NCBI GenBank assembly: GCA_913057245.1
Contig: CAJXNH010000001.1
Coordinates: forward strand, 124,001 to 188,000
DNA length: 64,000 nt
Direction: 5' to 3'
Source of the DNA: an uncultured Phaeodactylibacter sp.
Lineage (GTDB): Bacteria > Bacteroidota > Bacteroidia > Chitinophagales > Saprospiraceae
The notes under the pieces were generated by a model, which saw nothing but the letters and a program-made list of their open reading frames with translations, did not search any database and was not told the origin of the DNA. Of this stretch, positions 52,280-55,836 are shown in pieces. Within the stretch, counting starts at the first letter, position 1, and each line of letters begins with the position of its first letter. The position numbers and the translations under genes are program-made.

Positions 52280-53461
52280 ATGACAAAAATTTCGAGAATG
52301 ATTCCATTAATTCTACGGGTAGGTGTCTGCCTGGTAGCGCATGCTCTAATGATTCAGCATATATCCGCTCAAAACCTGGTACCGAATCCGTCCTTTGAGC
52401 TGGTAATTGATGATCCGGAATTCAGGCCAACAGGGGTCAATAGTTCTGTAGACTGGTTCATATTGCTGTTTACGACAGAGTTTTTTCATCGGTCTTATGC
52501 CGCTGTTGCCAGTGTGCCGGCTAATCATCGTGGATTTCAGGAGCCTTATATCGGAGATGGATATGCAGGCATTATTGTTTATCCTTTGCATTCCCGGGAG
52601 TTTCTTGCAGTGCAGTTGACAGCGCCATTGGAGCCGGGAGAGGTTTATACCCTAACCTTTCAGGTTAGTCTCTTGGAGCGGTCAAAGTTCCGGACTGATG
52701 ATTTTGGGGCTATGCTGTTGCACAACCGGCCTGAACAGGACAGCTTGAGCAGGTACCATTATTCGGTAAAAAACCTTGAAGGTCGTGTCCTTTCGGATAC
52801 TTCCGGATGGATGGAAATCCGGGGGCAGTACCTGGCTGAGGGTGGCGAAGAATACCTGCTTATTGGTAATCTATACGATCAGGCACGTACCACTTTTGAG
52901 GAAACAGGGGTTGAGAATGCTTTGCCCTGGGCTTACTATTATGTAGATCAGGTCGTGTTGGAACGATGCGGAGAAACAGGCAGCTCTATCACCCAATTAC
53001 CTCCAAAGGACACTGTGATTTGCGATAGTGGCAGTGCAATGCTCGAGGGGTTGCCTGATGCAGATGGCTATTACTGGGTTGGGGAAGGTACCGAACCTGT
53101 GCTGCAAACCCGGAGGCCAGGAAGGTATATGCTCAATCATTACTATGGATGTGATATCCTCCAGCAGTCTTTTACCGTTGAAACCGATGGGTGTTTCTGT
53201 GATATTACCTTTCCTTCTCCCAGTAGGCTGCCTGCCGAATTGCGTCCTTTACCTTCCCGAAATGTGGAAAGTTACACCCTTGAACTCTTCAATGCCGCCG
53301 GGCAGAAAGTCTGGTCAGGCGATCAGGAAAGCCTGAGCCAGACAAAGCTTTCTTTGGCTGCGGGCATTTATTTCTGGCGCGCAAAGCTTGACTGCTTCAG
53401 GGAGTTGGATCAACAGCCGTTTCAGCGTACCACGAGCGGGCGCATATTATTTGTGGATTAG
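52280..53461 (+). CDS. Secreted 'NLVPNPSFE'-type protein, possible T9SS cargo
   Basis: 393 residues. The signal peptide ends IQHISAQ (about residue 30), and the mature protein starts NLVPNPSFE, a beginning frequent in Bacteroidota surface proteins with carbohydrate-binding-like sandwiches. A beta-sandwich follows (about 31-225), then a second small domain (about 230-300; VICDSGSAMLEGLPDADGYYW). The C-terminus (about 325-393; YTLELFNAAGQKVWSG...LSLAAGIYFWRAKL) resembles a T9SS sorting domain with a non-standard last stretch. An adhesive role is inferred, not shown. Confidence 0.75.
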   Translation: MTKISRMIPLILRVGVCLVAHALMIQHISAQNLVPNPSFELVIDDPEFRPTGVNSSVDWFILLFTTEFFHRSYAAVASVPANHRGFQEPYIGDGYAGIIVYPLHSREFLAVQLTAPLEPGEVYTLTFQVSLLERSKFRTDDFGAMLLHNRPEQDSLSRYHYSVKNLEGRVLSDTSGWMEIRGQYLAEGGEEYLLIGNLYDQARTTFEETGVENALPWAYYYVDQVVLERCGETGSSITQLPPKDTVICDSGSAMLEGLPDADGYYWVGEGTEPVLQTRRPGRYMLNHYYGCDILQQSFTVETDGCFCDITFPSPSRLPAELRPLPSRNVESYTLELFNAAGQKVWSGDQESLSQTKLSLAAGIYFWRAKLDCFRELDQQPFQRTTSGRILFVD

Positions 53462-53814
53462 GGCTAGGGTGAGGAGGTTTGCAGGGCTATAAAGCTATTG
53501 TGCTGATCTAAATTTTTGACGGAGCATCTATCCGGTCTTGGTTTTCCCTTTGCGAGGAGGTTGTGAGGTTTAGCTTCCTTTCGCCTTCCAGCTAAAACGG
53601 GCGAGCTCCCAACATTGTTTTTCTCCACCCAAATCCGTATCTTACCGATTATTCACTAACCGCAAAAAACGGACCTCATGTTTACACACACACACATTCC
53701 ATCCGCCGAAGCCAACAGGCGAAAGAGGACACACACATTCCATCCGCCGAAGCCAATAGGCGAAGGAGGACACACACATTCTGCGCACGACATTCTGTTA
53801 AGCTTATTTTTTCC
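53462..53814. other. 353-bp region before the metalloprotease gene with 41-bp repeats
   Basis: Between two plus-strand genes. The first 200 bp show only degenerate GGAGG-containing direct repeats (near 53470 and 53555). From 53678 the sequence can be read from an ATG through an AC tract and two and a quarter 41-bp repeats, but this frame ends at TGA 53822-53824, out of register with the downstream gene. No terminator or recognisable promoter was found. Confidence 0.6.
53690..53781 (+). repeat. 41-bp tandem repeat with AC tract (possible phase-variation switch)
   Basis: Copies at 53690-53730 and 53731-53771 differ at two positions; a partial third runs to 53781. The unit starts ACACACATTCC and ends AGGAC. 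An alternating AC tract (53684-53696) precedes it. As 41 is not a multiple of three, copy-number change alters the reading frame between ATG 53678 and the downstream coding sequence. Confidence 0.85.
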
Positions 53815-55836
53815 ATGCTCATGATATCAGGCTTGCATACCGCAACCGGGCAAAGCTACGTCACTTATGGTTTATATGGGGAGTACGAAGAAGACCCCAA
53901 GAGCTATTTCCTGCGCGTTCAGTTCAATTTTATAGATGCAGATGCACCTAACGAAGATGCTGCATGGTGGGAAGTAGGGGGGTATGACTTGGCGGACGAA
54001 GCTCAAAAAGGGCTGGACAACCTCAATCAGGCGTTCAACCCGCATGGAATATTTTTCCTGGCAGACGAGCCAACGCCGGATTGTGCTACGCCAGCTACCT
54101 ATCGTTCTTATTTTGATTTGCAAAATCAAAATCCGCAAGGGTTAAGTGTTTTGGAGCTGATTAGGGGGAGCCTCCAAACGGAAGATGAGGTTGAACGGGC
54201 CCTGAATATTTACATTAACAGTGGCCAGGGGGAACCTTTGGGCTTTGCGCCTCAACTGCCTGGCAACCATGTAACTGTCAAGGGCTTGGAAGCTGGCGAA
54301 CTAGCCACTAGCGGCACTATAACGGTGCACGAGGTAGGGCATGCGCTGGGGCTGTTGCATACCTTTGCCGGTGATGTACTTGGGGAGTGCAATGAAGGGG
54401 ATATTCCTGAACCTGTGGGCTTCTGCTCTTCAGAAGAAGACCTTTGCTATTGCTGTGGCGATTACGTTTGTGATACAGACTACGATCTGAATGAGGATTT
54501 TGAGCTTGACCCTACAGATTGCTCTGGCGGTGAATCTATACCAGCGAGTGTGCGGCGCAATTACATGAACTACATATCTCCGGATGAATGCCGGAATGCT
54601 TTTACGGAACAGCAAGGGTTAAGGATGAAAATGTATTTGCGGGAGCTGAAGGATTACTATTCGGATGACGTATTGGAAAAAATCCAACTACAGGAAGCCG
54701 CCTACCCCGGCACCGCCCCTTCCGGTGTAACAGGTAATCTTACAGTAGAATCCGAGGTGCTTGAAATACTGTCGCCCCTGCAAATGCTGCCTGGCGCAAC
54801 CATTACCGTGAAAACTGGTGCAGCCCTCCACATTAAAAGCACCCTGACGAGTGCCTGCGATGAGATGTGGCAGGGAATAAAAGTAGAGTCAGGAGGTATC
54901 GTCAAAGTTTTTGGGCAGGGCGTTATTGAACATGCCGAATGCGGGATAGATGTAGTCGGGAATAGCTCTGAGGTGAGTATCCTCGGGGGTACACTTTTGA
55001 ATAACTCGATAGGCTTGCGCGTAGCTGCGGATGATGCGATTGAGACGAGCAATCAGGTCTTTTTTGCCAACTTTGAGCTCAACGACCAGTATAAAGGTGC
55101 TTCTGATGAACGGCCCTATTTCATGGTCTTGCGCGGCAACCGGGGCACCCGGATCAGGTACACCACTTTTGCAGATGAGCGGACAGCTGATTGTTCTGCC
55201 CCAAACGGGGACTGCCCAAAACGTGCCATTGGTATTGATGCCCGGGAGGAATTCTTTTTCGGAGACATGCCGTTTTTCCAGTTGCTTTGGGCGCGCATCC
55301 CACAATTGGTAGCCCTGACCCCTTATCAGTCAGGTACTTACAGCAGCCTTTCTGCACTCTTTTCGGCTCTGTCCCCTTATGTGTCCGAAGGGGGCGGCCT
55401 GTCCAATATGCCAAAACCTTTGGTTGAAGCGTTGTATAATTTTACTACGCACTGCAACGAAGCGGGCTTTCTCGCGGTGGAACTCTTGCGGCGCAATGGG
55501 GTAGAAGCAGCGGTGCAGTGCAACAGCCCGAGCCCGGCAATGGCTCAACAAAACAGCGGAGGGCCCCAGGCAAAGGAACTGCACCACAGGCAGGACCGTA
55601 GGAGTGCTGTGTTTTTCCCTAACCCCACGCAAGGCACCCTTCAGGTCGTCCTTTCAGAAGGGACAGATCGGGCCTCCCTGATACTTTACAACTTACAGGG
55701 GCAACCTGCCTTCCAGGCCGTGCTCACCGGGCAGCGTACCACCCTGCAACTGCCAGTGCCAGCCGGCATCTACTGGGCACGCCTGCAAATAGCCGGGCAG
55801 CAGCCGGTGCACCACAAAATCATTGTATCACGCTAA
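53815..55836 (+). CDS. M43 (pappalysin)-like secreted zinc metalloprotease with T9SS domain
   Basis: 673 residues from ATG 53815. The zinc motif HEVGHALGLLH is at 172-182 (His ligands, catalytic Glu), followed by a Met-turn-like RRNYMNYISPDECRNAFTEQQ (about 241-262), as in M43 peptidases. A right-handed beta-helix-like middle (about 300-480) follows, and a C-terminal T9SS signal (VFFPNPTQGTLQVVL..., IYWARLQI). The N-terminus from this ATG (MLMISGLHTATGQ) is a hydrophobic core without the usual basic start. Reading upstream in the same frame gives basic VKLIF-type residues but no start codon. A 41-bp repeat tract lies just upstream, so expression may depend on repeat number. Confidence 0.85.
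   Translation: MLMISGLHTATGQSYVTYGLYGEYEEDPKSYFLRVQFNFIDADAPNEDAAWWEVGGYDLADEAQKGLDNLNQAFNPHGIFFLADEPTPDCATPATYRSYFDLQNQNPQGLSVLELIRGSLQTEDEVERALNIYINSGQGEPLGFAPQLPGNHVTVKGLEAGELATSGTITVHEVGHALGLLHTFAGDVLGECNEGDIPEPVGFCSSEEDLCYCCGDYVCDTDYDLNEDFELDPTDCSGGESIPASVRRNYMNYISPDECRNAFTEQQGLRMKMYLRELKDYYSDDVLEKIQLQEAAYPGTAPSGVTGNLTVESEVLEILSPLQMLPGATITVKTGAALHIKSTLTSACDEMWQGIKVESGGIVKVFGQGVIEHAECGIDVVGNSSEVSILGGTLLNNSIGLRVAADDAIETSNQVFFANFELNDQYKGASDERPYFMVLRGNRGTRIRYTTFADERTADCSAPNGDCPKRAIGIDAREEFFFGDMPFFQLLWARIPQLVALTPYQSGTYSSLSALFSALSPYVSEGGGLSNMPKPLVEALYNFTTHCNEAGFLAVELLRRNGVEAAVQCNSPSPAMAQQNSGGPQAKELHHRQDRRSAVFFPNPTQGTLQVVLSEGTDRASLILYNLQGQPAFQAVLTGQRTTLQLPVPAGIYWARLQIAGQQPVHHKIIVSR

Follow-up and report, generated by a model that had tools for sequence, protein, structure and literature searches.

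The 64-kb window analysed here, by which we mean the whole stretch of DNA under study, comes from contig 1 of a genome of 3.5 Mb that is 62% complete and comprises 63 contigs. On its forward strand lies an intact metalloprotease frame of 673 amino acids (53815-55836, from ATG 53815), which contains an M43 domain at about 54316-54639 with the motif HEVGHALGLLH (HExxHxxGxxH; PF05572, 32.4 bits, cut-off 23) and, at about 55615-55827, a weak match to Por_Secre_tail, the type IX C-terminal domain (22.8 bits, cut-off 27). The signal-peptide core and cleavage region of this frame (KLIFSMLMISGLHTATGQS) is encoded at 53800-53856 of the same strand. A protein started at ATG 53815 begins MLMISGLHTATGQS, i.e. 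inside the hydrophobic core and without K or R, and no ATG, GTG or TTG is present in the protease frame between its upstream stop and the core, the frame staying open 85 bp 5' of ATG 53678. An earlier sequence-only reading, which held that the protease lacks a basic n-region when started at 53815, is borne out in this respect.

Upstream of the protease, and out of frame with it in this allele, a leader frame of 48 codons (53678-53824, forward strand) runs from ATG 53678-53680 to TGA 53822-53824 and translates as MFTHTHIPSAEANRRKRTHTFHPPKPIGEGGHTHSAHDILLSLFFPCS. It passes through an AC dinucleotide tract (53684-53696; 13 nt, or 6.5 units) and through 41-bp repeats, which tandem-repeat analysis delimits as copy 1 (53688-53728), copy 2 (53729-53769, 39/41 identical to copy 1 and with the core form that is found at other loci of the genus) and a partial third copy of 12 bp (53770-53781), all on the forward strand. 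The array (53688-53781, 2.3 copies) has a TRF score of 174, the highest of four in the 64-kb window, and is not a product of chance, since the score lies far above those of the other three (46-72). Repeat units of 2 and 41 bp, neither a multiple of three, are thereby placed between ATG 53678 and the hydrophobic core. The distance from this ATG to ATG 53815 is 137 bp (2 mod 3); removal of 41 bp leaves 96 bp and removal of 2 bp leaves 135 bp, either of which is in frame, and across the repeats neither the beginning of the leader frame nor the frame of the protease contains a stop. The sequence-only reading had given the leader frame exactly to the base, its spacings were reproduced when recomputed, and its statement that no stop would intervene once the frames are joined holds as well.

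A putative promoter of the Bacteroidota type (TTG-N20-TATCTTAC, 53615-53645, forward strand) precedes the leader; it is a pattern match and an inference only, and its TATCTT element also occurs 5' of leader A (see below) at locus L024. An Rfam scan of 53400-54000 returned just two sub-threshold matches to eukaryotic families, which we judge to be chance. At the downstream end of the leader an ATGA is found at 53821 (window 53820-53824), where the TGA that ends the leader overlaps an ATG in the frame of the protease; because of this overlap re-initiation in the OFF state could yield a little unexported protein, which is no more than a guess.

The orthologous locus in Phaeodactylibacter xiamenensis

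The orthologue (L005/L107; G001 C79) is found in P. xiamenensis KD52 (G001), a cultured member of the same genus. It shares 93% of amino acids with the window protease over the catalytic part, and more than 300 bp of upstream DNA are near-identical and include the same ATG. Within about 130 bp there are four length differences: the P. xiamenensis allele has one 41-bp copy where the window has two, 10 AC units where the window has about 6-6.5, and two 2-bp insertions. Its distance amounts to 108 bp, a multiple of three, so that leader and protease form a single frame of 886 codons starting MFTHTHTHTFHPPKPTGERGHTQILRTTFYIKLIFSMLMISGLHTATGQS (ON), with an unusually long n-region of about 31 residues ahead of the KLIF segment. 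In-frame and out-of-frame alleles of the same gene are thus at hand, and from this comparison it follows that the length-variable part lies exactly between start and core and that both states exist in nature. As judged by its frame, the window allele is OFF. This had been proposed from the window alone and is now supported by the joined 108-bp frame of the orthologue, expression being inferred in both cases. Orthologues with a conserved start at 53815 behind unrelated upstream DNA, or an invariable repeat number, would have refuted the proposal; instead, the upstream DNA and ATG 53678 are shared and both tracts differ. A more distant homologue without a tract (L006, in G013) has an ordinary start beside its signal peptide, MNPASTRNLAFLFCLLALSIF.

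The two repeats need not contribute equally. Both had been put forward as contingency elements, and this stands for the 41-bp repeat, for which a copy change is seen. It is weaker for the AC tract of the window, since 6.5 units are short compared with 8-21 in relatives and slippage is expected to be slower. The main event for the window allele is therefore probably the loss or gain of a 41-bp copy.

The two proteases also differ farther downstream. About 1.0 kb of the P. xiamenensis gene is missing from the window (55240-55250 against L107 4010-5047), the joint being a short shared sequence, an 8-bp overlap of both alignments, and while the window protein ends in the weak type IX domain, the P. 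xiamenensis frame ends soon after similarity resumes.

Loci of the same plan in the genus and beyond

Pattern searches, on which all genome-wide counts given here are based and which included several metagenome-assembled or draft genomes, identified at least 17 loci of this plan in the genus, the window among them. They share a start codon, one or more AC tracts and usually the 41-bp element or a relative, followed by the hydrophobic core of either a signal peptide or a lipoprotein signal. Five leader types can be distinguished: A (CTCATGTTTACAC), B (ACAATGAACTTGC), C (CGTATGAACCATTC), and D and E in G003. In three of the genomes from the genus, the 41-bp element accompanies the leaders of further genes, and the leader ATG of the window is kept in G001 C79, G001 C17 and G004 C150. 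Five loci are ON (G001 C79, G001 C35, G001 C38a, G004 C200 and, with a GTG start, G000 C16b), all with a frame unbroken from the leader start, and 12 are OFF. Genes behind leader B occur in both states, ON in G001 C35 and OFF in G001 C37 and G004 C348. Most of the OFF genes have 530-1012 open codons and are not decayed, the A-leader gene G004 C150 being a decayed one with 42 codons left. Six of the 12 lack any usual start codon in the gene frame; GTG or TTG is found in frame at some OFF loci, and ATG at G003 C477. AC tracts of at least 7 units in the genus are mostly found at such leaders (exceptions include G004 C367 and G002 C655). The core GCCGAAGCC..GGCGAAGGAG is also dispersed away from AC leaders, namely at G003 C66, C82, C209, C219, C225 and C261, G001 C76 and G005 C35.

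Outside the genus, the pattern ATGAA-N5-35-(AC)7 was found in 21 of 328 family genomes, from 17 genera, as compared with about 7 for a backwards control and 10 for the GT version. A long frame with a hydrophobic core follows 15 of 24 distinct ATGAA-(AC)7+ tracts, whereas the same rule is met by only one of 10 GT tracts (Fisher p = 0.008). About 19 loci with the plan occur in other Saprospiraceae genomes, nine ON and 10 OFF. The comparison of orthologue N-termini suggested by the sequence-only reading finds leader and protease joined in P. xiamenensis; the design is repeated at 16 other loci of the genus and about 19 others of the family. No usual start codon precedes the core in the gene frame at about seven of the 10 OFF loci outside the genus. 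Repeat number varies within conserved flanks, as in the same-flank copies of G122 and G208 with 11, 8 and 9 AC units; these differences are observed between species and paralogues, not between strains. At L164, in another genus, an AC tract is accompanied by a relative of the GCCGAAGCC..GGCGAAGG element, seen as the translation QSAEANKAKEG. In a phylum-wide sample 6 of 296 genomes had the pattern, and in several of these the leader contains a stop, but two loci from two genomes of another Bacteroidota family (L202 and L203) have the same plan, both OFF.

GT tracts did not serve as a clean negative control: they are mostly negative, but those at L193 and L197 enter frames of secreted proteins. 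Both lie inside the signal peptide itself, where they encode Cys-Val repeats, and both are out of frame. In view of this position GT would occasionally be used too, and such tracts in the hydrophobic core could be another type of this switch.

Among the targets that can be recognised, secreted metalloproteases form the most frequent class. Pfam matches comprise M43 (window, G001 C79, G003 C329 and G003 C540), thermolysin-like M4 (G001 C35), reprolysin-like or M66 domains (L162, L167 and, weakly, L150) and tyrosinase (L164); beta-helix proteins and type IX C-terminal domains are also among the targets.

Leaders have also been exchanged between such genes. G000 C16b (L120) and G001 C38a (L106) are one lipoprotein gene, with 98% identity 3' of the repeat and 94% in the collinear DNA farther upstream. 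In between, G000 C16b has leader B over about 400 bp (93% identity with that of G001 C35) in place of the leader C of G001 C38a, and the two similarities of G000 C16b overlap only within a 47-bp repeat. This chimeric joint is directly observed; with collinear DNA on both outer sides, it could be an artefact only if the assembly had gone wrong twice, independently. The G000 C16b frame behind leader B extends for just 104 codons from the core, compared with 736 in G001. In G003, two different genes are headed by leader E, whose copies of about 155 bp are 97% identical and cease to match at the AC tract. Our best reading of these alignments is that the repeats also act as the joints in this exchange of promoter-leader segments between genes.

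Interpretation and alternatives

We consider it likely that the window carries a translational phase-variation switch on the protease, for which reversibility, export and protein output are inferred in the absence of population or expression data. Under the proposed mechanism, transcription would begin 5' of the leader and translation at ATG 53678, itself an inferred start codon, and the AC tract and 41-bp repeats would encode the N-terminal portion of a signal peptide that is long. With a total length that is a multiple of three, the leader would join the hydrophobic core and the protease would be exported (ON, as in P. xiamenensis); any other length would lead to an early stop in the leader and no exported protease (OFF, as in the window). 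The state would flip through slippage that adds or removes AC units, or through recombination or slippage that adds or removes 41-bp copies. These processes and their mutational rates are inferred; directly observed are the frames, the recurrence of the design and the differences in length from one species or paralogue to another.

The frames alone prove nothing, since the ON fraction (5 of 17 in the genus, about 14 of 36 overall) is the one third to be expected of a leader frame that plays no role, and we rejected the ON/OFF ratio as evidence for selection for the same reason. Further points against the switch are the unusually long n-region of the ON signal peptide, the short AC tract of the window, the in-frame starts at some OFF loci and the metagenome-assembled or draft state of several genomes. 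The case rests on the absence of alternative starts, the conservation of leader starts, the strand asymmetry and the intactness of OFF genes.

The chance-like ON fraction is also what would be found if the leader ATG had no role, the repeats being untranslated, the KLIF segment being started from an unusual codon (ATT or GTT), or the tract affecting transcription or RNA stability. Immediately ahead of AAG CTT ATT there is indeed ATT in P. xiamenensis and GTT in the window, and a few OFF loci have GTG or TTG in frame. Such an explanation must nevertheless account for many unrelated signal peptides that lack a usual start in the gene frame, every one of them behind a tract, for AC tracts that follow an open ATG leader on the coding strand where GT tracts rarely do, and for the uninterrupted frames from the leader start at the five ON loci; we regard it as unlikely. 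Somewhat less room is left for the idea that the repeats are decayed remains of mobile or intergenic repeats which had inserted into signal peptides, OFF genes being pseudogenes. The dispersal of the GCCGAAGCC..GGCGAAGGAG core away from leaders (G003, G001 C76, G005) and the decay of G004 C150 are in its favour, but most OFF loci retain frames of hundreds of codons, an ON orthologue exists, leader starts are kept, and the same plan is found on many different genes across genera. A miscount of repeats in a fragmentary metagenome-assembled genome, whose assembly is unchecked against reads, is very improbable for an array of less than 100 bp with two copies distinguishable at two bases, the more so as copy-number and AC differences recur in independent genomes, including that of a cultured strain.

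Beyond the translational switch on the protease, the loci could belong to a family-wide Saprospiraceae phasome, in which AC-built n-regions and a dispersed 41-bp element shift the frame and join mobile promoter-leader cassettes. We offer this only tentatively, with somewhat more doubt than belief. If true, one repeat would provide both on/off switching and a re-wiring of expression of secreted proteases and surface proteins.

Relation to known switches

Switches in which repeats shift the reading frame are known mostly in pathogens that have small genomes and are adapted to a host. Those proposed here concern marine bacteria with large genomes and affect their exported proteases and surface lipoproteins; an algal culture was the source of the closest named relative (PMC4263839). 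Bet-hedging in the breakdown of polymers and proteins, or phage avoidance, becomes directly testable in a culturable strain. Many secreted proteins of Saprospiraceae may also be truncated or missed by annotation pipelines, because their true start lies 5' of the tract or because it is an OFF allele that was deposited. A literature search, outside the coverage of which most subscription papers fall, found no report of phase variation in Saprospiraceae. In the same phylum, surface and secreted functions of Bacteroides are likewise phase-variable, by DNA inversion according to a review (PMC11868660), and a 2025 review, in the passages located, mentions phase variation of Bacteroides only as inversion or without a repeat mechanism; unlike these systems, the present switch would act by repeat length, and there is no sign of inversion.

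Closer parallels are found in Neisseria opa, with CTCTT pentamer repeats in the region coding for the leader peptide (PMC3960869), and in Helicobacter pylori oipA, whose signal-peptide region contains CT dinucleotide repeats (PMC10564699). As in opa, the frame of a surface protein is shifted by tandem repeats within the part that encodes the signal peptide, a genome has several loci, each in a state of its own, and recombination takes place between loci. The repeats are here, by contrast, AC dinucleotides and a 41-bp element ahead of the hydrophobic core, the proteins concerned are lipoproteins, type IX cargo and secreted metalloproteases of Saprospiraceae, and no switching rate is known. Similar to oipA, a dinucleotide tract in the 5' coding region decides between ON and OFF by frame, yet it is AC instead of CT and encodes His-Thr in the n-region, a second and longer repeat can shift the frame as well, and unrelated genes share leaders. 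The comparative features of an Opa/OipA-like translational contingency locus with simple sequence repeats are met as far as sequence comparison can tell, population switching being inferred. Our best reading is that, in a lineage for which we found no report of such switches, a different tract works in the manner of Opa and OipA.
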